In this document: positions 1 to 11,976 of the stretch, piece after piece
Layout of the letters: the number at the start of each line of letters is the position of its first letter
Position numbering within the stretch: the stretch's first letter is position 1
NCBI GenBank assembly: GCA_016210745.1
Contig: JACQTO010000018.1
Location: 1 to 64,000 of the forward strand
From: Betaproteobacteria bacterium
Lineage (GTDB): Bacteria; Pseudomonadota; Gammaproteobacteria; Burkholderiales; SG8-39
Reading direction: 5' to 3'
DNA: 64,000 nt
Notes under the pieces: model-generated
What the model was told of the DNA's origin: nothing
The model's database searches: none
The model's input: only the letters and a program-made list of their open reading frames with translations
Made by a program: the position numbers and the translations under genes

Positions 1-3000
1 GAGAGAGGGCAACGCCATCTTCCACTCGGACCTGAACGCGATCATCGCCGGACCGAACGCGGACGGGAGTTTCCCGGCCAGTACCTATCCGCTGGAGAGC
101 GTGGGCAAGCGCAATCCGGCGGTGCCGAATCGGCTCGAGCCATTCCGCGAGTTCACTGTTGTCTTCCACGACGAAGCTTCGGTCGGGCAGGCGTTTCCCG
201 GGTGGTTCAACGCGAACCCGGTGACCAGCCGCATCCTCCACGGCGTTCGCGACTCGTTCTTGATCAACTACGGCTCGGGCGGCGTTGGATCGGAAGTCAT
301 CGCCAACCGTCTCGGTGTGGGGCCGATGTGGGACTGTCTCTCCTGCTCCTATGAGGAATTCTTTCTCACGTCGTTCGCCGTGGGCGATCCGTCGATGCTC
401 GTGGATGTCCCGGCCAACGTTGGCCTCGAGGCTTGCGACATCTCCGGCGCCAACTGTGCTGATGTCGGCCCCAAGGCCACCAAGGCCTTTTTCCCCGACG
501 ATCCGTCGAACGTGCATCACAGCTACCAGAACGACCGTGTGGTGTTCAGGAATCTGCATGCGGGCAAAGAGCACCACATCTTCCACCTGCACAACCACCA
601 ATGGCTGTTTGACGCCAATGACGACAACGCGAACTATCTGGATGCGCAGGCGATAGGCCCCGCCACCGGCTACACCTACGAGATCAACTTCGGCGGATCC
701 GGCAACCGCAACAAGACCGCCGGTGACGCGATTTTCCACTGCCATTTCTATCCGCATTTTGCCCAGGGCATGTGGGAACTCTGGCGGATCCACGATGTGT
801 ACGAGACCGGGACGCGGCTCGCGGTGAGTGGGGCCGACATCCACGCGGTGCCGTTCGCGCTGGTAGATGGAACGCCGGCGGCCTCCGCGACGGTCGCAGG
901 TTCCCGGATGCGGGCTCTGCCCGACGGCGAGATTCTGGTCGGCACGCCAATTCCGGCCGTAGTGCCGCTTCCCGGCAAGGCGCTGCCATTGATGCCCGCT
1001 GAGGTAGTGGTCGTGAAGAAGAACGCTAACCCGGGGGTCGATGACGATCCGGTCACCCTGGGCGTGCAGCAACTCGCCGAATCGAGCCAAGCCTACGTGG
1101 TCGAGCGCACCAAGAATCCGGGCTATCCGTTCTGGATCGCCGGGGTGGACTGCGGCGTCGATCCGGCGACCTGCGAAAAGGGCGTGGTAGGTCAGCGTCC
1201 GCCGACGCCGGTGCTCGATATGTTGAGCGAGACGCAGGCTGCAAGTCTCCGCGCAGCCGACGCTGCGCTGTTCGGCGCGCTCAACTTCACCCCGGGCAAC
1301 GCCAGTGGTGGCTGGGACGGCGGACTCCCGCGTCACGCTCTGGATGGTTTCCTGGCGGTAGCCAATCCGAACGCCAATCCCCGGCTCGACCCGGACATCG
1401 TCCTCCAAGAGCAAACCAAGCTCAGCTTTGCCAAGCACATCCACAAAGCCAAGCCGGTCTGGTTTCCGGAGGCAGGCACCGATATAGAACGTGTCGCGAT
1501 GCAATTTCATGCCCAGCGCGAGCATCCGAGCGCTGCGCTTCATATCGGGGCTGCGCCGGTGCCGGCTAACTACATCACCAACGGCGGACCCCCGCAGGCA
1601 GGCGCACCGTTCTTCGAGCCGTGCATCGACGATAAGGGCAAGACGCTTTTCGCCAACGCGGGTGCAGGCGAATGGTTCGGCGCCACGGCGGGCGGTTTCG
1701 TGAGCCTGGGCGCCTCGCCATTCAACGCCGCCACGCCGCGCGTCTACAAGGGCGCGAATGTTCAGATCGACGCGGTGTTCAACAAGATGGGCTATCACTA
1801 TTCCCAGCAGCGGATCGTATCGCTGTGGGAGGATGTGGGTCCCTTTATCAGCAAGCAAAAACCGGCCGAGCCGTTCGTCATCCGCAACAATACGCTGGAC
1901 TGCACGCGGTTCCTGCACACGAACTTGGTGCCGCAGGTCTTCGAAGTGGATGACTACCAGGTCAGAACGCCGACCGACATTATCGGCCAGCACATCCATC
2001 TGCCCAAGTGGGATCTGCCGTCGGCCGACGGCTCGGGCAACGGATGGAATTACGAAGACGGAACGCTCGCGCCCGGCAACGTGCAAGAGCGGATCCTGGC
2101 GATCAATCACTACAACCCGAGCGGGGTAGGAAACCCGGCGAACAGCCAGGGCAGCGGAACGAACGCCCCGCTGGCAGCCTTGCCGCACCCGTTCTTCGGC
2201 GCCGGCCAGGGCAACGAGTATCTCGGTGCCCGGACCACGATCCAGCGCTGGATGTTCGACCCCGTGCTGAACATTCATCACGCGGACCGCGGGCTCGGCA
2301 TCATCTTTAGCCACGACCACTACGGCCCGTCCACCGTGCAGCAGGTGGGGCTGTATGCGACCGTCTTAGCCGAGCCGATCGGTTCGCAGTGGAGGCACAA
2401 CGAGACCGGCGTGGCGATGTACACGCGCCCGGATGGCGGGCCGACCGGCTGGCAGGCCGCCATTCTTCCGGCGACCAATGCTTCGCAGCCGGCGCAGTTC
2501 GAGCCGTTCCGCGAGTTTTGGTTCCAGCACAGCGTCTTCGAACACGCCTATGAACCCGGCGTCTACATCGGCGCCGGACCTGATGGGCGGCCAAACGGGG
2601 TTCTGCCCGATGCCAACAGTTTCCGCGCCGCGATCAATCCCTCGGTCAGGGAAATGGCAAATCCGGTATTCCCGGACGTGGTACGAACTGCTGCGGTTTG
2701 CAAGGACGGTACGCCGCGGCCATGCCCTGAGGCGATTTCAGCCGACGACCCCGGCTTTTTCGTGACCAACTATCGCAACGAGCCGATCGGCTGGCGCGTG
2801 TTCGACCCGAACAAGCTCGGGCCCGACGGCAAGCCCGGCAGCCAGGCCGACGGTCAGGCAGGCGATCTGGCCTTTGCGCTGCAGTCCCGTACTGATCGGA
2901 AAATTCCGGCGCTTAACACGGCCCTCGGAAATACTCCCTATCCTGCACTCACCCGGGGCGCTCTGCCCGGCGACCCGTTCACGCCGATGATACGCGCCTA

Positions 3001-4993
3001 CGCCGGCGACCTGATCCGCATCAAGTCGCAGGCAGGCGGCGACGAGGAGGAGCACAACTTCAGTATGCCTGGGGTCAAGTGGCTCCAAGGCGGGTCTGGC
3101 CACGGCCGGGCGCCTAATTCCGGTTGGCGCAGTTCCCAGCACCGGGGTATCTCGGAACAGTTCACCTTCGCTGCGCCGATCGGCCCGTTCGCGGATTCGA
3201 CGCAGTCACTCATTTCCGCAGACTACGCCTACACCCAAAACACGAGCGTTGATGGCTGGTGGACCGGCGTCTGGGGTCTGATGAGATCTTACAACCTCGC
3301 TCAAGGGAACCTGTTCAAGCTGCCGACCACCAAGGTGCCGGTATTGCCTGCCAACGCCATCGAGTTCGGTGGGGTTTGTCCAAGAACGGCGCCGGTGAAG
3401 CGCTTCAACATCACCGCCGTGCTGGCAAACAGTGTGCTCAGGAATGCCGTCGGTGCAACCATACCCTCGAATGTCAATCCAACCGATAATGTCGGCGCTG
3501 CGCTTAACCCGGGTGGCGGCACTTTGGTCTACAACCCGCGCAACACGCCGCTTGCGCCGCCGTCGACCACAGCCGAGCCGGGCGAGCCCGCTGAGCTCTT
3601 CGAGCCGGCACCGATCCCGGGTGTGCCGCGCAGCGGACCTCTCCACGACCCGACGGCGATCCTGTTGGTGCAGACGTCGGACCTCGGGTTGGACGGCAAG
3701 CTCAAGGTTAACGCGCCGGTCGAGCCGATCGTCTTGCGTGCTACGGCGGGCCAGTGCATCGAGGTGAGACTCACGAACAAGCTGCCGGCGCAGATGCCCG
3801 ACCTGGCGGGTTTCCACCAATTGATGGCGGTGGTCCCGCGGGACAAGAACGACCCACAGGGCGTGACCTGGTTCGGCAACAATCTGATCCGCCCATCGAG
3901 CTATGTGGGGCTCAGCCCGCAGCTGGTCGCGCACGACGTGACCAAGACCGGTTTGGCCGTCGGCAAGAATTTGATCAAGCCCGAAAGCAATCTCGGGCCG
4001 CTCGTGGCACCAGGAAAGACGCAAATCTTCCGCTGGTATGCGGGCGACTTGGAGTCAGTCGACGTCGCTGGGGGCGACAATCTCCAGAGCGTCAATATCG
4101 TCGCCACACCGATCGAGTTCGGGGGTGCCAACCTTGGTCCCGCCGACGTGATCAAGCAGGGACAGAAGGGCCTCATCGGCGCAATCGTTATCGGGCCGCA
4201 GAACGCGACGATCACAGAAACCGATAAGACCTGGGACCACCAGCAGGCTGACCAGAGCAAGACACGGAACACCCGTGCGTCGGGAACCTTCAACGGAACA
4301 GTCCGCGACTTCGCGGTGGTGCTGCAGAAGGGCTTATCCCTGCGCTACGGTGACGGAGCCGCCGTAGAAAACATCGCCAGCGAGGGCGCGGGATCACCTG
4401 AAGATCCACAGGATTCCGGTCAGATGGGAATCAACTACGGCACCGAGCCCATGTGGTTCCGGTATGGGCTTCAGCCCCACGTGCCGTTTGGCAGCGCCGG
4501 GACGGCGGGCAGTCTCGGCGCCGTAGCCAACCCCGAGCAGGCGTATAGCAATGCGCTCGTGAGTGGTGACCCGGCAACTCCGGTCTTTACAGCCAGCGCC
4601 GGCGCTTCGGTCAGGCTGCACGTGCTCAACCCCGCAGGCGTCGAGCGCGGTACGGTTTTCCAACTGCACGGGCATCTGTGGCAGCGGGCGCCGTATATCT
4701 GCCCGGGACAAGACGACGGGACGGGGCTGCAAGGCAAGTGCAACTGGACCGATTTCGGTGCGGCCAATTTCGAGATCGGCTCGCGCGCAATCGGCTTCAA
4801 CCCGATCGGCATGTACGTGGGGGCGCAGGAAAGCATTCTCCCCGGCGCGCACTTCGACATAGTCCTTCCCGGCGACGGCATCGCTCACGGCGGCGCAGGC
4901 GGCGCGGGCAAGGTGCCCGGCGATTACCTGTTCCGCGACCAGGGTTCCTTCGGCAACCTGAACGGCCTGTGGGGGATTTTGCGAGTGGAATAG
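1..4993 (+). CDS. Giant multicopper oxidase, MofA/MnxG-like (5' partial)
   Basis: The reading frame is open from nucleotide 2, so the true start lies upstream; at least 1663 residues are visible. Copper-site motifs are clear: an HxHxHxW-like stretch (HLHNHQW, about nt 582-605), then HCHFYPHFAQGM (about nt 737-772), which is the classic HCHxxxHxxxGM type 1/trinuclear signature. Further His-rich segments occur at about nt 1990 (QHIHLPKW), 2305 (SHDHYG) and 4660 (QLHGHLW). The C-terminus ends in a cupredoxin-like strand but has no second HCH motif. Size and motif layout match the very large bacterial multicopper oxidases linked to Mn(II) oxidation (MofA, MnxG); substrate is inferred only. It heads a run of genes for periplasmic redox and copper handling, which supports an exported or outer-surface oxidase. 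Any signal peptide is outside the window. Confidence 0.85.
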   Translation, partial: REGNAIFHSDLNAIIAGPNADGSFPASTYPLESVGKRNPAVPNRLEPFREFTVVFHDEASVGQAFPGWFNANPVTSRILHGVRDSFLINYGSGGVGSEVIANRLGVGPMWDCLSCSYEEFFLTSFAVGDPSMLVDVPANVGLEACDISGANCADVGPKATKAFFPDDPSNVHHSYQNDRVVFRNLHAGKEHHIFHLHNHQWLFDANDDNANYLDAQAIGPATGYTYEINFGGSGNRNKTAGDAIFHCHFYPHFAQGMWELWRIHDVYETGTRLAVSGADIHAVPFALVDGTPAASATVAGSRMRALPDGEILVGTPIPAVVPLPGKALPLMPAEVVVVKKNANPGVDDDPVTLGVQQLAESSQAYVVERTKNPGYPFWIAGVDCGVDPATCEKGVVGQRPPTPVLDMLSETQAASLRAADAALFGALNFTPGNASGGWDGGLPRHALDGFLAVANPNANPRLDPDIVLQEQTKLSFAKHIHKAKPVWFPEAGTDIERVAMQFHAQREHPSAALHIGAAPVPANYITNGGPPQAGAPFFEPCIDDKGKTLFANAGAGEWFGATAGGFVSLGASPFNAATPRVYKGANVQIDAVFNKMGYHYSQQRIVSLWEDVGPFISKQKPAEPFVIRNNTLDCTRFLHTNLVPQVFEVDDYQVRTPTDIIGQHIHLPKWDLPSADGSGNGWNYEDGTLAPGNVQERILAINHYNPSGVGNPANSQGSGTNAPLAALPHPFFGAGQGNEYLGARTTIQRWMFDPVLNIHHADRGLGIIFSHDHYGPSTVQQVGLYATVLAEPIGSQWRHNETGVAMYTRPDGGPTGWQAAILPATNASQPAQFEPFREFWFQHSVFEHAYEPGVYIGAGPDGRPNGVLPDANSFRAAINPSVREMANPVFPDVVRTAAVCKDGTPRPCPEAISADDPGFFVTNYRNEPIGWRVFDPNKLGPDGKPGSQADGQAGDLAFALQSRTDRKIPALNTALGNTPYPALTRGALPGDPFTPMIRAYAGDLIRIKSQAGGDEEEHNFSMPGVKWLQGGSGHGRAPNSGWRSSQHRGISEQFTFAAPIGPFADSTQSLISADYAYTQNTSVDGWWTGVWGLMRSYNLAQGNLFKLPTTKVPVLPANAIEFGGVCPRTAPVKRFNITAVLANSVLRNAVGATIPSNVNPTDNVGAALNPGGGTLVYNPRNTPLAPPSTTAEPGEPAELFEPAPIPGVPRSGPLHDPTAILLVQTSDLGLDGKLKVNAPVEPIVLRATAGQCIEVRLTNKLPAQMPDLAGFHQLMAVVPRDKNDPQGVTWFGNNLIRPSSYVGLSPQLVAHDVTKTGLAVGKNLIKPESNLGPLVAPGKTQIFRWYAGDLESVDVAGGDNLQSVNIVATPIEFGGANLGPADVIKQGQKGLIGAIVIGPQNATITETDKTWDHQQADQSKTRNTRASGTFNGTVRDFAVVLQKGLSLRYGDGAAVENIASEGAGSPEDPQDSGQMGINYGTEPMWFRYGLQPHVPFGSAGTAGSLGAVANPEQAYSNALVSGDPATPVFTASAGASVRLHVLNPAGVERGTVFQLHGHLWQRAPYICPGQDDGTGLQGKCNWTDFGAANFEIGSRAIGFNPIGMYVGAQESILPGAHFDIVLPGDGIAHGGAGGAGKVPGDYLFRDQGSFGNLNGLWGILRVE

Positions 4994-5106
4994 GTCGACT
5001 TTGCAGCTAACGTGGCGTGAGTAGCTGCGGTCACCGCCCCGATTTGGACCGGTGTCCGCATGGCTCGCGGAGTTCAACAGTTCAAGATAACGTGGGAGGA
5101 TCTGCC

Positions 5107-7050
5107 GTGTATTGCCTTGCAGTAAAGCGCGTGCTTCGCTGCGCCGCCCTGGGTCTTTTCCTGGCCGCACCTGCCCTCGGGCAAGCGCCCGAGCAGGCTT
5201 CGTTATCGAATCGGTTCGTTCGCGAAGGACTGGCCGTCGAGTTTTCCGCGCGGCCCGCGGGGCGCGGGGGCGAGCTGCGGGAGGGCGATTACGCGGAGAT
5301 CACCTTTGGCATAACGGACACCTCGACAGGCAAGCCGGTCCGCTCGCTGGCGCCGGGGGCATGGATGGACGTAGGTCAAACGGTGGCAGCGCGCGACAAC
5401 GTGCCGCTGGATTGCCGGCAGAAGATGAGTCTCTATCTCTCGGGCCGGGTGGGCATCCGGCCGATGATCGACCTGAACAGCTATTACGTCCTCGCCCTGA
5501 ACCAGGACTCGAGCATCTCGGTGGTGGATCCGATGGTGGGGATGGCGGGAAAGACATACCTCTATGCTCATATCGCGCTCCCACGGCCGGGCGCCGACTG
5601 GGCGAAGAGCGCCGACGACAAACGGCTGTTCGTCACGATTCCGCGCGCTTCGCAGTTGGCGGTAGTCGACGCCGAAAACTTCAAAGTTGCCGGCAAAGTG
5701 GACGTAGGCGGCGTCCCCATGCGCATCGTGATGCAGAACGATGGACGCTATCTCTGGGTAGGCAACGACAGCAAGGAGGCCGCACAAAGCGGAGTGGTGG
5801 TCGTCGATCCGGTCTCCCTCGCAGTAGCGGGCCGTATCCCTACGGGGCGAGGCCATCACGAGATCGCGCTTTCGCCGGACGATCGCTGGGCCTTGGCGAC
5901 CAATCGCGAAGACGGCACGGTGTCGGTGATCGACGTCCATCGCATGGAGAAGGTCAAGGACGTGAAGACAGGCCTCCAGCCGATCTCGATCGTCTATGCG
6001 CGCCTGAGCCGGGCCTTTTACGTCGCCGACGGCAAGACCGGGGAAATCGCGGTGCTCGACGGCCGGAGCCATGAGGTGATGGCACGCATCAAAGCCAAGC
6101 CGGGTCTTGGGCCCATGCGCTTCACGGAGGATGGCCGCTGGGGTCTCGTCACAAACAGTTTGGAAAACGCGGTTCACATCATCGACACTGCGAGCAACCG
6201 CCTGGCTCATACCGTCTCCGTCGGAAAACGTCCATACCAGTTGACCATTACTCGGGCCTTCGCCTACGTGCGCTCGCTCGACTCGGAAAAGGTGGGCATG
6301 ATTCCGCTGTCCGAACTCGGTCGCGATCGGGCTCCGGCTGTGACCGAGTTTGCCGCCGGCACCGAGCGCCCGGGTTTAGCGGGGCCGGGGATGGCCGTGG
6401 CAGCGCCGATGGTGTCCGCGCTGGAAGAGGCGGCAGTGATGGTGGCGAATCCGGCGGACGGCAACGTGTACTTCTATATGGAAGGAATGGTGGCGCCGAT
6501 GGCGACGTTCCGCAACTACGGACATCGGCCGGTCGGGCTGGAGGTGATCAACAGGAGCCTCAAGGAGACCGAGCCCGGCCTCTACAAGACCACCGTGCGC
6601 TTGCCTGCAGCCGGCAAATATGACGTCGGGTTCATGCTCCAGTCCCCGCGCGTGATTCACTGTTTCGCCGCCGAAGTCGCCTCAAACCCGGCGGCGAAGC
6701 GCGCCGGACCCGCGCTCGAGATCGAGCACCTGATCAAGAGCCGGAGGGTTCCAGTGGGTGAACCCGTGAAGCTCGCTTTCAAGCTGACGGACGCGCAGAC
6801 CCAAAAGCCGCGCACCGGGTTGAGCGATGTGCGCGTGGGCTACCACATGGCCCCGGCTGGCCAGCGAAAAGAGGCGCTCGTGCGCGAGTTGGGAGAAGGT
6901 GTTTACGAAGCCGCGCTGTCGCTGCCGGAGGCCGGGGCCTACTATGTGCATGTGGCGGTGCCATCGGCGAAGCTCCGTTTCGGAGACCTTACGTTTCTGA
7001 GTCTGATCGCTCAGCCTAGGAGCGAGTCCGGTCGCTCGGCGAGAAGATGA
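5107..7050 (+). CDS. Secreted YVTN/cytochrome-D1-type beta-propeller protein
   Basis: I place the start at the GTG at 5107 because it follows GGGAGGA with good spacing and opens a signal peptide (MYCLAVKRVLRCAALGLFL, cleavage near ALG-QA). A GTG at 5017 is in frame but has no leader-like sequence. The 647-residue product has repeated propeller blades of the YVTN type through about residues 140-410 (for example SVIDVHRMEKVKDVKTG, VLDGRSHEVMARIKAKPG), resembling the haem-d1-like WD fold without an obvious haem ligand set. The C-terminal third (from about 490) has two Ig-like beta domains of the FixH/YtkA flavour. It lies 113 nt after the multicopper oxidase and overlaps the following SCO gene by 4 nt. 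A role as periplasmic scaffold or partner of the oxidase is inference. Confidence 0.8.
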   Translation: MYCLAVKRVLRCAALGLFLAAPALGQAPEQASLSNRFVREGLAVEFSARPAGRGGELREGDYAEITFGITDTSTGKPVRSLAPGAWMDVGQTVAARDNVPLDCRQKMSLYLSGRVGIRPMIDLNSYYVLALNQDSSISVVDPMVGMAGKTYLYAHIALPRPGADWAKSADDKRLFVTIPRASQLAVVDAENFKVAGKVDVGGVPMRIVMQNDGRYLWVGNDSKEAAQSGVVVVDPVSLAVAGRIPTGRGHHEIALSPDDRWALATNREDGTVSVIDVHRMEKVKDVKTGLQPISIVYARLSRAFYVADGKTGEIAVLDGRSHEVMARIKAKPGLGPMRFTEDGRWGLVTNSLENAVHIIDTASNRLAHTVSVGKRPYQLTITRAFAYVRSLDSEKVGMIPLSELGRDRAPAVTEFAAGTERPGLAGPGMAVAAPMVSALEEAAVMVANPADGNVYFYMEGMVAPMATFRNYGHRPVGLEVINRSLKETEPGLYKTTVRLPAAGKYDVGFMLQSPRVIHCFAAEVASNPAAKRAGPALEIEHLIKSRRVPVGEPVKLAFKLTDAQTQKPRTGLSDVRVGYHMAPAGQRKEALVRELGEGVYEAALSLPEAGAYYVHVAVPSAKLRFGDLTFLSLIAQPRSESGRSARR

Positions 7051-7721
7051 TCTGCGCGCGCCGAGATGTGAACAGGAGAACCGGGTTCAGGCCCATTGCC
7101 TCGATAGGCCTGGGCGCGCTGCTTTGGGTCAACGCCGGATTGTTCAGCGCGGGCAGTCTCGCGCACGAAACCCATGGATCTCATGCTGCAGCGGCACAGG
7201 CGGTCAAGGCTGCCTCGGCCAATGTGAGGCTGCTCGATCTCGAGTTGACCAACCAGGAAGGGAAAACGGCGAGATTCAAAACCGACGTGATCGGGGACCG
7301 AATCGTCGTCCTGGATAATATCTATACCAGTTGCACGACGATCTGTCCGATCGTCACGACCATCATGTCGAATGTCCACAGCAAAATCGGCCGCGCGGGC
7401 AGGGAGGTTTCGTTGGTCTCGCTCAGCGTGGACCCTGTAACCGATACGCCCCAGCGCCTGCGGGCCTATGCGCGGCGCCACAAGGCCGCATGGAATCTGT
7501 GGACCGGACCGAAGCCAGCTATGGACCAGGTATTGAAAGGGCTCGGCATTTATACGCCCGACTACACCGACCATCCGTCGTCGATTCTGGTGGGCGACGG
7601 AAGGACCGGGGAGTGGACGCGTTTCTACGGATTCGCCAGCCCCGAGCAGATCGTTAAAAGGGTGGACGAGCTCTTGTCGGCGCGGCAGAGTGCGGTTGGA
7701 AAAACAGGAGCAAGTAAATGA
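7047..7721 (+). CDS. SCO1/SenC family copper chaperone (first copy)
   Basis: A 224-residue thioredoxin-fold protein with an N-terminal membrane/signal segment (about residues 16-40). It has the SCO copper site: CTTICP gives Cys96 and Cys100, and the distal His is in DYTDHPSSI (His176). SCO proteins deliver copper to CuA centres or act as periplasmic thiol-disulfide reductants. It starts within an ATGA overlap with the propeller gene and ends in an ATGA overlap with the next SCO gene, so the three are translationally coupled. A His-rich stretch (HETHGSH) follows the leader and could bind metal. Copper loading of the large multicopper oxidase encoded upstream is a reasonable inference, but cytochrome oxidase assembly is the family's usual job. 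Confidence 0.9.
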   Translation: MICARRDVNRRTGFRPIASIGLGALLWVNAGLFSAGSLAHETHGSHAAAAQAVKAASANVRLLDLELTNQEGKTARFKTDVIGDRIVVLDNIYTSCTTICPIVTTIMSNVHSKIGRAGREVSLVSLSVDPVTDTPQRLRAYARRHKAAWNLWTGPKPAMDQVLKGLGIYTPDYTDHPSSILVGDGRTGEWTRFYGFASPEQIVKRVDELLSARQSAVGKTGASK

Positions 7722-8383
7722 AGCTTGGGACGGCAATGACTTTTTTCATCGTGCCGATGATAGCCCTCTTGTCGCCGGTCGCGTATGCGTCGCAAAGCCA
7801 GGCAAACCCACAGCCGCCGAGCACGCAACAGGCGAAGGGCCCGGACGAGCAAACCAGTCGCAACTACTTTACCGATCTTCCGCTATTGACCCAGAAAGGC
7901 CAGCGCGTACGCTTCTACAGCGATGTGCTGAAAGACAAAGTGGTGTTGATCAGCTTCATCTATACGAGCTGCAAGGATGCGTGTCCGATCATCATGCATA
8001 GGCTCTCACAAGTGAAGAATCAGCTCGGCGAGGCCTTCGGCAAGCAGGTGTTCTTTATTTCCATGAGCGTCGATCCGGTTCGGGACACGCCGCAGGTCTT
8101 GGCGAAATATGCCAGGCAGCACCACGCCGAGCACCCGGGCTGGGTGTTTCTCACCGGCGAAAAGGCGAATGTCGATCGGATATTGACCAAATTGGGTCAG
8201 CGTGCAGAAACACCGGAAGCCCACTCCGCTATGCTGTTGGCGGGCAATGTCGGAACGCGCCATTGGACGAAAGTGGCTCCAACGGTTTCGGTCGCGGGAG
8301 TTGCGGCGAAACTGCAGGATCTGGCGCTTGAATCGGCGGCGGCGAATGCGCCCGGCCGCTCTGCCGGTTCAAAGCAAAATTAG
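7718..8383 (+). CDS. SCO1/SenC family copper chaperone (second copy)
   Basis: A 221-residue exported SCO protein with a signal segment at residues 1-25. Cys85 and Cys89 lie in SCKDACP, and the third ligand His169 in PEAHSAML. It overlaps the first SCO gene by ATGA. The two copies differ strongly outside the motif, so they are not a recent duplication; they may have split functions (copper delivery against thiol reduction). Its N-terminal linker (residues 26-48) is Gln/Pro-rich and probably tethers the domain. Confidence 0.9.
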   Translation: MKLGTAMTFFIVPMIALLSPVAYASQSQANPQPPSTQQAKGPDEQTSRNYFTDLPLLTQKGQRVRFYSDVLKDKVVLISFIYTSCKDACPIIMHRLSQVKNQLGEAFGKQVFFISMSVDPVRDTPQVLAKYARQHHAEHPGWVFLTGEKANVDRILTKLGQRAETPEAHSAMLLAGNVGTRHWTKVAPTVSVAGVAAKLQDLALESAAANAPGRSAGSKQN

Positions 8384-8464
8384 CGCGACGAAGGTGAACG
8401 CAGCTTCCGGCGGGGGGCGATCGCATTCGATGTCGACGTTCGGCCGGAAGGCGCAAGAGCAGCC

Positions 8465-10033
8465 GTGCGGCTCGTAGCGGTCTTTTTCGCCGCGGCGACG
8501 ACTCTATGCGCGACCGACGCGGGTGCCGCGGCGCTGTCTATTGCGGAAGAGCGCGGCCGAGAAATCTATCTAAACGGCAAGAGCCCCTCCGGGCGGGATA
8601 TCACCGCGCTTGTCGGACAGGGGTTGGTCGCCACGCCGGCAACGGGACTCCCGTGCGGAAGTTGCCACGGCCCTGACGGGCTGGGCCGGCCGGAGGGCGG
8701 GGTAGTTCCGTCCAATATCACGTGGGGCTATCTGACTAAGCCTTACGGCACGCTATCCACTTTCGGCCAGCGCCGCCCCGCCTACACGGCTGATACGTTG
8801 GCGCGGGCGATAAGGCTGGGTATCGATTCTGCGGACAAGCGCCTGGATGTAAGCATGCCGCGCTATCGAATGGCGCAAGAGGATATCGAAGACCTGATCG
8901 CCTATCTCAAGCGTCTCGAAACCTACTTGGATCCCGGCTTATCCAACGACCGGATCATCCTCGGAACGATCTTGCCCGGTCCGGGGCCGTTGCACTCTCT
9001 GGGGCAGTCCATGCGTGCGGTGGTGGAAGCCCATCTCGATAGCATCAATGCGCAAGGCGGCATATACGGACGCAAACTGGAACTCGACGCCAGAGAGGCC
9101 GCGGGCACGAAGGCGGTTCGAGAAGCTGCAAAGAATCTGGGCAAGCGCGCATTTGCTCTGGTCAGCGTTTTCACGGCCGGTGCAGACGACGAGTACGCCG
9201 AACTTGCGGAGGACGAAGGTCTACCGACGATCGGCCCGTTCACACTGTTCAATCAGGACGAGAACTCGCTCCGGCGTTTCACGTTCCATCTATTCGGCGG
9301 CTTGCCGGTTCAGGCTCGAGTCCTGGCCGAATATGCGGCGCGCAAGTTGCGCGGGCAAAAACCATCCACGGCGGTAATTTATCCGGCCGATCCGCAATGG
9401 GCGGCGATCGCTCAGACCGTAGAAAATCAGGCAGCGGGGCAGGGGTGGCCGATACCGCTGCCGATCCGCTACGCGCGCGGCCAGATAAGCGCGGGAGAAC
9501 TGGCGAGGCGATTGAAAGGCGATGGAATCGAGGCGGTGTTCTTCTTCGGCAGTCCTGCGGAGCTGGTGTCCTTGACCAGAGAGGCCGAACGGATGGCTTG
9601 GACGCCGTACGTGTTCCTCCCGGGATCGCTTGCGGGCAAGGAGATTTTCGATGTACCCGCGGTCTTCCAGGACAAGATCTTTCTTGCCTATGCAACCATC
9701 CCTTCGGACCACACGCCGGCCGCCGTAACGGAATTTTCGGCGCTGCGGCGCGGGCACGCGCTCAGCGAGCCCTATCTGCTCGCTCAGATAAGTGCCTACG
9801 CTGCAACCAAGGTTCTGGTGGAAGGGCTCAAACGCGCCGGCCGGGGATTGTCGCGCGAGAAACTGATCGCCGCCTTGGAGAAGATGTACGACTACGAAAC
9901 CGGACTTACCCCAAAACTTACCTACGGGCCGAATCGGCGCATCGGTGCACTGGGCGCCCATATGATCGCCGTTGACCTGGCTAAACGTGAGTTCAAGGTG
10001 GCCGGCGAATGGATTGAACTCAAACCGAAGTAA
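8465..10033 (+). CDS. Cytochrome c domain fused to an ABC-type periplasmic ligand-binding domain
   Basis: The GTG at 8465 opens a signal peptide (MRLVAVFFAAATTLCATDAGA); a GGAAGG about 13 nt upstream is a weak ribosome site. Residues about 24-150 form a class I cytochrome c domain with one haem site CGSCH (Cys64, Cys67, His68) and likely axial Met in VSMPRYRM near residue 137. From about residue 157 onward the protein is a type I periplasmic binding fold like the branched-chain amino acid receptors (Peripla_BP_6): SMRAVVEAHLDSINAQGG, then PTIGPFT, AVIYPADP and FVFLPGS-like strands. No permease or ATPase genes are nearby, so it is unlikely to feed an ABC importer. It is the last gene of the oxidase operon; I infer electron transfer coupled to ligand sensing or to the oxidase. 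Confidence 0.85.
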   Translation: MRLVAVFFAAATTLCATDAGAAALSIAEERGREIYLNGKSPSGRDITALVGQGLVATPATGLPCGSCHGPDGLGRPEGGVVPSNITWGYLTKPYGTLSTFGQRRPAYTADTLARAIRLGIDSADKRLDVSMPRYRMAQEDIEDLIAYLKRLETYLDPGLSNDRIILGTILPGPGPLHSLGQSMRAVVEAHLDSINAQGGIYGRKLELDAREAAGTKAVREAAKNLGKRAFALVSVFTAGADDEYAELAEDEGLPTIGPFTLFNQDENSLRRFTFHLFGGLPVQARVLAEYAARKLRGQKPSTAVIYPADPQWAAIAQTVENQAAGQGWPIPLPIRYARGQISAGELARRLKGDGIEAVFFFGSPAELVSLTREAERMAWTPYVFLPGSLAGKEIFDVPAVFQDKIFLAYATIPSDHTPAAVTEFSALRRGHALSEPYLLAQISAYAATKVLVEGLKRAGRGLSREKLIAALEKMYDYETGLTPKLTYGPNRRIGALGAHMIAVDLAKREFKVAGEWIELKPK

Positions 10034-10344: not shown

Positions 10345-11976
10345 ATGGCTCAGCCGCAGCTCTACGATTACATCATCATCGGCGCCGGCTCGGCAGGCTG
10401 CACCCTGGCCTATCGATTGTCCGAGGATCCGAGCCTCAAGATCCTGGTTCTCGAAGCCGGCGGCTGGGACATCAACCCTTGGATCCACATTCCGCTTGGC
10501 TGGCCGCGCATACTCGCCAAGCGCATGAACGACTGGATGTACTTCTCGGGGCCTGAGCCCGAAGTCGGCGGACGTCCGATGGAATGCGCGCGCGGCAGGG
10601 TTGTCGGCGGATCCTCGTCGATCAACGCCATGGCTTATGTGCGCGGGCACCGCGGCGACTACGAACGCTGGGCCGCATCCGGTTTGAGCACGTGGTCGTA
10701 CGCGCATGTGCTGCCGTACTTCCGCCGGCAGGAATCCTGGGAATACGGTGCCGACGAATTCCGCGGCGGCGACGGACCGCTCACCACGCGGTTTTCGCGC
10801 TACGGCGATCCGCTTGCGGAGGCGTTCACGACGGCTGGGCTTTTGGCGGGCTATGGCTACACCCCGGACTATAACGGTGCCCAGCAGGAGGGGTTTGGCG
10901 AGTGGCAGGCGACCATCCGCGACGGACGGCGGTGCAGCACAGCCGTGGCCTACCTTAGACCCGCTCTCAAGCGGGGCAATGTCACCTTGGCGCTCAAGGC
11001 GCTGACGACGCGGCTGCTCTTGAGCGGCAATCAAGTGACCGGCGTGGAATACGTCCAGGGCGGGTCGAGCAAAATCGCCTCGGCTGAGCGCGAGGTCATT
11101 TTGTGCGGTGGGGCCATCAACAGTCCACAGCTGCTGAACCTGTCCGGAATTGGGGACCCCGATGAGCTTCGCGGCCTGGGTATCGAGGTCAAGGTCCCGC
11201 TCAGAGGCGTCGGCAAGAACCTCAACGACCACATTTCCGTCGGCGTCGCCTATCTGAGGAAAGAGCCGGGACCGCTGCACAAGAGCATGCGCATCGATCG
11301 TATTTCCCGCGAACTCGGCAATGCCTATTTCTTCGGCAAGGGCATCGCCACGGACCTGCCATCGGGCTCGATGGCTTTCCTGAAGAGCTCGCCGGAGGTC
11401 GAACTTCCGGACGTCCAGCTCCTGCCGATGGCCGCGCCGATGGCAGCGGGGCCCTACCTGGAGCCGTTTCGCAGGAGCTACGACGACGGCTTTGCCATCA
11501 GGGCCGTGGTGCTTCGGCCCGAGAGCCGCGGCTATGTCCGCTTGGCTTCGAACTCCCCATCGGCGGCACCGCTCATCTTTCAAAATTTCCTCGCTACCCG
11601 GAAGGACAAGGAGACGCTGCGCGCCGGCGTGCGCATCGCACGCGAGGTCGGACGCCAAGGCCCGCTCAAGCGTTTCGTCGCCAAGGAACTGGCGCCGACC
11701 GGCTTTTCCGATGCGGAAATCGACGCTCATGTTCACGCGAACGGCATCTCTGTCCACCATCCCCTCGGAACGTGCAAGATGGGGCTGAGCTCCGATCCGA
11801 TGGCTGTCGTCGATCCGGAACTGCGCGTATTCGGATTGGAGAAGCTGCGGGTCGTCGACGCCTCGGTCATGCCCGATCTGGTGGGCGGGAATATCAATGC
11901 ACCGGTGATCATGATCGCGGAAAAAGCCGCCGATCTCATCAGGGGACGCGAAGCGCTGGCGCCGGCTAAGGTGTAG
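10345..11976 (+). CDS. GMC family FAD-dependent oxidoreductase (choline/alcohol dehydrogenase-like)
   Basis: A 543-residue member of the glucose-methanol-choline family. The N-terminal dinucleotide fold is IIIGAGSAGCTLAYRLSED (about residues 10-28), followed by the GMC signature around RGRVVGGSSSINAM. The C-terminal active site has His471/His472 in VHHPLGTCKMG and the conserved Asn in VGGNINAPV. Such enzymes oxidise alcohols and pass electrons to quinones or cytochromes; the substrate is not determined by sequence alone. No signal peptide is seen, so it is probably cytoplasmic or membrane-associated. It stands alone, with 311 nt before and about 270 nt after it. Confidence 0.92.
   Translation: MAQPQLYDYIIIGAGSAGCTLAYRLSEDPSLKILVLEAGGWDINPWIHIPLGWPRILAKRMNDWMYFSGPEPEVGGRPMECARGRVVGGSSSINAMAYVRGHRGDYERWAASGLSTWSYAHVLPYFRRQESWEYGADEFRGGDGPLTTRFSRYGDPLAEAFTTAGLLAGYGYTPDYNGAQQEGFGEWQATIRDGRRCSTAVAYLRPALKRGNVTLALKALTTRLLLSGNQVTGVEYVQGGSSKIASAEREVILCGGAINSPQLLNLSGIGDPDELRGLGIEVKVPLRGVGKNLNDHISVGVAYLRKEPGPLHKSMRIDRISRELGNAYFFGKGIATDLPSGSMAFLKSSPEVELPDVQLLPMAAPMAAGPYLEPFRRSYDDGFAIRAVVLRPESRGYVRLASNSPSAAPLIFQNFLATRKDKETLRAGVRIAREVGRQGPLKRFVAKELAPTGFSDAEIDAHVHANGISVHHPLGTCKMGLSSDPMAVVDPELRVFGLEKLRVVDASVMPDLVGGNINAPVIMIAEKAADLIRGREALAPAKV

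Follow-up and report, generated by a model that had tools for sequence, protein, structure and literature searches.

A divergent mnxG-type operon without SurA, predicted to encode a manganese oxidase, in a little-known betaproteobacterium

The putative mnxG operon of Pseudomonas putida GB-1, as laid out in Table 4 of its description, consists of mnxG, a gene for a YVTN beta-propeller protein, two SCO1/SenC genes, a gene for an amino-acid ATP-binding cassette (ABC) substrate-binding protein with a cytochrome c domain and a gene for SurA, and all six are listed there for strains DSV-1 and MS-1 as well, their order unchanged (PMC11409713). According to the same account, mnxG encodes one of three Mn oxidases of GB-1, and cytochrome c maturation genes have a role in the Mn oxidation of P. 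putida MnB1. A similar operon, with five further genes resembling those of GB-1, is described for Pseudomonas sp. OF001 (PMC8218464), the promoters of GB-1 mnxG and mcoA have been described (PMC11930936), and no mnxG is reported for the Gallionellaceae (PMC10734462). In the mof and ompB clusters, too, a giant multicopper oxidase is encoded together with a cytochrome c, and the Geobacter cluster has a SCO gene in addition (PMC5566968). Here we analyse a window of 64,000 nucleotides (contig JACQTO010000018.1, or C125, positions 1-64000, of the Betaproteobacteria bacterium assembly GCA_016210745.1; 270 contigs, 5.2 Mb, 97.34% complete, 5.28% contamination), whose left end coincides with the contig end. 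Its first 10,033 positions contain five plus-strand open reading frames (ORFs) in the order oxidase, propeller, SCO, SCO, cytochrome c/receptor, with the 5' end of the oxidase gene cut by the contig start (Table 1). These are genes 1-5 of the GB-1 operon, as also found in DSV-1, MS-1 and OF001, in equal order and orientation. An earlier sequence-only reading of this DNA had stated that no description of this exact five-gene set was known, which was mistaken in view of the listings in PMC11409713 and PMC8218464: the kind of operon has already been described, and the window holds a somewhat divergent further member without SurA in a little-known betaproteobacterium. Judged from its genes, we consider it likely that the locus is an mnxG-type Mn(II)-oxidase operon, encoding an exported oxidase together with its own copper-loading and accessory proteins.

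The arrangement noted in that first reading, five genes in one direction with three of them joined by ATGA overlaps, was confirmed by the ORFs and their domain matches: 4-base overlaps at 7047-7050 and 7718-7721 join three genes, and the remaining gaps measure 23 and 81 bases. Pfam recognises a Cytochrom_D1/YNCE propeller with YtkA, SCO1-SenC twice, and Cytochrom_C with Peripla_BP_6. These domains and the conserved gene order bear out the idea that the genes form a copper-oxidase operon equipped with SCO chaperones and a cytochrome of its own.

Conservation of the set was assessed in relatives from one GTDB scan, with HCHFYPH among its search patterns, that yielded 474 candidates, the best 80 of which (79 loci, mostly Pseudomonas) were kept. 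Synteny was counted in the 68 loci whose sequence continues for at least 5.2 kb past the last mnxG, the other 11 ending too soon, and SurA matches below 40 bits were dropped. The order propeller-SCO-SCO-cytochrome/receptor follows mnxG in 64 of these 68 loci, nearly all from Pseudomonadota, plus Anaeromyxobacter (Myxococcota), so that the co-occurrence of the five families proposed as a check does recur across genomes. SurA completes the series in 60 loci and is missing from four (L032, L035, L037 and L110). Altered arrangements were found in L033 (propeller-cytochrome/receptor-SCO), L036 (propeller-SCO-cytochrome/receptor), L091 (propeller only) and L108 (none of the partners), and L034, among the 11 short loci, has propeller-SCO-SCO-SurA without the cytochrome fusion. 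L108 and L091 are thus cases of the kind that the sequence-only reading had named as refuting its proposal, oxidase homologues without the partner genes; both are, however, second mnxG copies in genomes that hold the full set after another mnxG. The two SCO genes overlap by 4 bases in 51 of the 79 loci. More distant sets are present on an Indioceanicola plasmid (L018), where no cytochrome fusion was found, and in L029, L030 and L031, genomes of the same taxonomic order as the window. In L029 and L030 mnxG is longer (ORFs of 2470 and 2436 codons) and the cytochrome/receptor gene shorter (457 and 460 codons), with a propeller and two SCO genes also present, and in L027:1-8367, from another member of this taxonomic order, a MASE1 histidine kinase and a LuxR-type regulator lie between two mnxG genes.

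The oxidase itself matches the NCBIfam family NF041487, "manganese-oxidizing multicopper oxidase MnxG", at 2009.5 bits over residues 2-1663, and no Pfam family at E 0.001. Of the two names first suggested for it, MofA/MnxG-like, the one that holds as family is MnxG, with Mn(II) as the likeliest substrate. An alignment of 88 rows of at least 1600 amino acids, the window included (6 shorter rows of 94 were left out), places all four copper motifs intact (Table 1), and motif C could be aligned with the Bacillus MnxG structure 9bxa, which answers the proposed comparison with MnxG copper ligands; for motif D the conservation has to be read with the scan in mind, as HCHFYPH, a part of this motif, was itself a search pattern. 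The motif names A-D and the ligand roles (type 1 (T1) H, C, H and M; trinuclear His) follow those of the multicopper-oxidase family. The Bacillus protein has Ala at the third motif-D His, a position at which the window oxidase (737-772) and all 88 aligned rows have His.

Table 1. Features of the operon in the window and of the copper motifs within its oxidase gene
Feature	Position	Strand	Evidence
mnxG-type giant multicopper oxidase, 3' 1663 codons	2..4993	+	open at left end; NF041487 match
Copper motif C HIFHLHNHQW	575..604	+	four His in 88/88 aligned rows
Copper motif D HCHFYPHFAQGM	737..772	+	T1 Cys, His, axial Met and trinuclear His in 88/88 rows
Copper motif A QHIHLPKWD (HxH)	1988..2014	+	both His in 88/88 rows
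Copper motif B SHDHYGPST (HxH)	2309..2335	+	both His in 88/88 rows
YVTN beta-propeller protein with YtkA-like C-terminal domain	5017..7050	+	ORF and domain matches
SCO1/SenC copper chaperone 1	7047..7721	+	CTTIC at 7332-7346, His codon 176
SCO1/SenC copper chaperone 2	7718..8383	+	CKDAC at 7970-7984, His codon 169
Cytochrome c fused to LivJ-type periplasmic receptor	8465..10033	+	CGSCH at 8654-8668, Met codon 131

Extension upstream, another check that had been proposed, led to a probable start of the gene and to its neighbours. The last 141 bases of contig C115 are exactly the first 141 bases of the window, an identity that looks like an assembly k-mer overlap. Because the two contig ends overlap exactly, the oxidase gene probably starts at C115:14582 and would encode 1946 amino acids in total, provided that the overlap is a true junction; the N-terminus of the joined protein resembles a signal peptide by eye. 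If the junction is right, a gap of 265 bases separates mnxG from a desaturase gene, and the oxidase is the first gene of its operon. Upstream of mnxG, C115 carries two tandem fatty-acid desaturase genes, an SPW protein, a major facilitator superfamily (MFS) transporter, a flavin monooxygenase, and a histidine kinase with a LuxR-type regulator. The tandem desaturase genes adjoining mnxG (C115; L007:12016-14316) are 88% identical in DNA.

Searching the own genome (G000) with NF041487 gave four pieces, namely the window, the C115 end (model positions 1-300) and two on C175. On this short contig (L004:1-4814, 4814 bases, same bin) an mnxG 3' part containing one in-frame TGA is followed by the start of another mnxG; at protein level the two pieces share 76% and 82% identity with the joined oxidase, and the first is nearer to the gene of the congener (84%). 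The bin has one close propeller gene and, besides it, a weak match of 24% identity on C101. C175 might reflect tandem mnxG genes before a single accessory set or might come from a co-binned relative, and both readings stand because of the 5.28% contamination of the bin. Arrays of the first kind do occur: in P. jinjuensis (L066 / L124) and P. schmalbachii (L058 / L125) three tandem mnxG genes precede one propeller-SCO-SCO-cytochrome/receptor-SurA set, and L041 has two mnxG genes in a row before its contig ends soon after. That the window oxidase is one copy of such an array sharing a single accessory set is conceivable, and we put it at somewhat worse than an even chance. If it were so, the paralogues could split the work between Mn(II), Mn(III) and other donors while sharing their maturation partners. 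No description of a tandem mnxG array was found among the titles and abstract openings listed by literature searches, which is no proof of its absence from print.

Both window SCO proteins have the CxxxCP motif and the distal His by which SCO1/SenC proteins are recognised, and CxxxC and the His are kept in at least 95% of rows (68 and 67 rows). The cytochrome likewise keeps CxxCH and Met131 in at least 95% of 70 rows. An AlphaFold model of the fusion (mean predicted local distance difference test score, pLDDT, 86.4) consists of a cytochrome domain and a LivJ-type receptor, with branched-chain and other ABC receptors as best structural matches. The propeller model (mean pLDDT 84.0) is a YVTN propeller flanked on either side by beta-rich parts, and its best structural match is an archaeal surface-layer YVTN domain. 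The protein is probably exported, judged by eye, and its start may lie further inside the ORF than 5017; cysteines 99 and 515 (counted from 5119) are invariant in 23 rows. Since Foldseek lists nitrous oxide reductase and cytochrome cd1 for the propeller (query-normalised template modelling (TM) scores of 0.33-0.44 among the 50 matches listed) and the NCBIfam L-NosZ family matches it at 63.6 bits, against a cut-off of 700, a catalytic copper or haem enzyme was considered. The copper site of NosZ is formed by seven His. A conserved His set is absent from the propeller, with a single His kept in at least 95% of 74 rows (its neighbouring His is also invariant in the 23-row alignment), and on this and the TM-scores the catalytic reading was rejected.

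For the mnxG-type Mn(II)-oxidase operon we envisage, from families and motifs, an exported oxidase that would take single electrons from Mn(II) and then from Mn(III) via its T1 copper and pass them to the trinuclear copper site, where O2 would be reduced to water; the resulting Mn(III/IV) oxide would stay outside the cell. Copper would reach the oxidase in the periplasm through the two SCO proteins, the propeller would most likely be a non-catalytic assembly or docking partner, and the cytochrome c/receptor fusion most likely an electron-handling or sensing partner. As multicopper oxidases hand electrons to O2 unaided, the fusion should in principle be dispensable for catalysis. Co-transcription of the five genes is likewise presumed. 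Two further large ORFs of the same genome, L129 (on C246) and L130 (on C61), have animal-haem-peroxidase matches, and calcium-repeat (RTX-like) matches far below family cut-offs; presumably they resemble MopA-type Mn oxidases.

Where the oxidase belongs can be judged from a quick tree of 36 chosen rows (midpoint root, support by Shimodaira-Hasegawa approximate likelihood ratio test only; the group of the window oxidase includes neither of its two long branches and none of its four rows with unusual composition). The window oxidase groups with C175, the congener (L032), a Myxococcota metagenome-assembled genome (MAG; L033) and an Acidobacteriota MAG (L034), whereas Pseudomonas, Aromatoleum and Caldimonas fall in a different clade. 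In its own lineage mnxG is patchy, with matches in three of 101 relatives and, order-wide, in five of 300 genomes at E 1e-100, the own genome included in both counts; two of the four members of the genus have it (G000 and G003), and it was not found in G001 (86% complete) or G002 (91% complete). The tree grouping together with this patchy distribution suggests that mnxG may have been transferred horizontally. The congener MAG NC_groundwater_680 (G003 / JACPRN010000040.1) has the identical five-gene order and an oxidase 81% identical to that of the window. Its contig begins just before mnxG, and the 2 kb left after the operon contain no SurA match.

Several observations weigh against the reading as an Mn(II)-oxidase operon. 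The sixth gene, for a SurA-type foldase, is usual, not invariable, and is absent here; the only SurA-like matches in the own genome, on C71 and C240, show 24-37% identity, so that the "self-contained" machine of the sequence-only reading was overstated. The next gene encodes a GMC oxidoreductase (10345-11976), for which the flanking sequence available for the 87 other loci compared gave no match at E 1e-6. L033 and L034, the nearest relatives outside the genus, have altered sets (one SCO gene in L033, no cytochrome fusion in L034). The first 283 oxidase codons could come from another copy, since C115 and C125 are joined by an assembly overlap and the bin also contains a paralogue. GB-1 requires MnxR, for which sigma-54 dependence is predicted, but a scan of C115 for the -24/-12 pattern (up to 2 mismatches) gave 2 matches, fewer than the chance mean of 7.08, and neither lies close to mnxG; this look at regulation covered sigma-54-like sites and not homologues of mnxS/mnxR. 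Mn(II) oxidation by this organism is, moreover, a prediction. Finally, the curated NF041487 equivalog cut-off of 3100 bits is reached neither by the cut window protein (2009.5) nor by the complete congener oxidase (2280.8), which means that the substrate could have shifted.

This last point, together with the 2234.6 bits of the Myxococcota oxidase, the separate clade, the lack of SurA in window and congener and the altered sets of L033 and L034, favours an operon of the same type whose divergent clade (the genus plus the MAGs of Myxococcota and Acidobacteriota) mainly uses a different substrate, such as Fe(II), a phenolic or Mn(III) complexes, and oxidises Mn(II) only as a side reaction. We regard this as unlikely, since window and congener retain the copper motifs and the five-gene set. 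A metal oxidase/reductase cluster of the OmpB/MofA type (Leptothrix mofABC, Geobacter ompB) in place of an mnxG operon seems highly improbable: as far as described, those clusters too pair the giant oxidase with a cytochrome c gene, that of Geobacter with SCO as well, but the propeller, the double SCO and the cytochrome/receptor fusion fit the GB-1 operon gene for gene, and the named family match is MnxG, the comparison with MofA and OmpB being one of described clusters. That unrelated copper and redox genes lie together here by chance, without forming a functional unit, has next to no probability, and the idea was rejected on the synteny in 64 of 68 loci and the recurring 4-base overlaps.

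With an mnxG-type Mn(II)-oxidase operon as the preferred interpretation, a betaproteobacterial genus with patchy mnxG (two of four members examined) would be added to the organisms that probably oxidise Mn(II). The genes for the propeller, the two SCO proteins and the cytochrome/receptor fusion accompany the oxidase over wide distances, with some losses, and are therefore good knock-out targets in P. putida GB-1; the consulted parts of the mnxG literature contained no tests of their roles.

Among known systems, the solved Bacillus MnxG (PDB 9bxa) is a distant one, matched by the window oxidase at 212 bits (E 6.7e-62) in seven collinear pieces, of which, taken alone, three are strong, one is borderline and three are weak; its partners are, we assume, MnxE and MnxF. 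The mofABC cluster of Leptothrix discophora and the ompB cluster of Geobacter sulfurreducens share the giant multicopper oxidase and the cytochrome c gene, and ompB also the SCO gene, but as described in PMC5566968 they have no propeller, double SCO or receptor fusion, and mof has a peptidyl-prolyl isomerase instead. The GB-1 mnxG operon, among whose features control by MnxS1/MnxS2/MnxR and sigma-54 is counted, differs from the locus in its sixth gene, SurA, and in the clade of its oxidase, the complete oxidase of the congener sharing 50-52% identity (best segment) with the listed Pseudomonas genes, and it is the system whose first five genes the window repeats.

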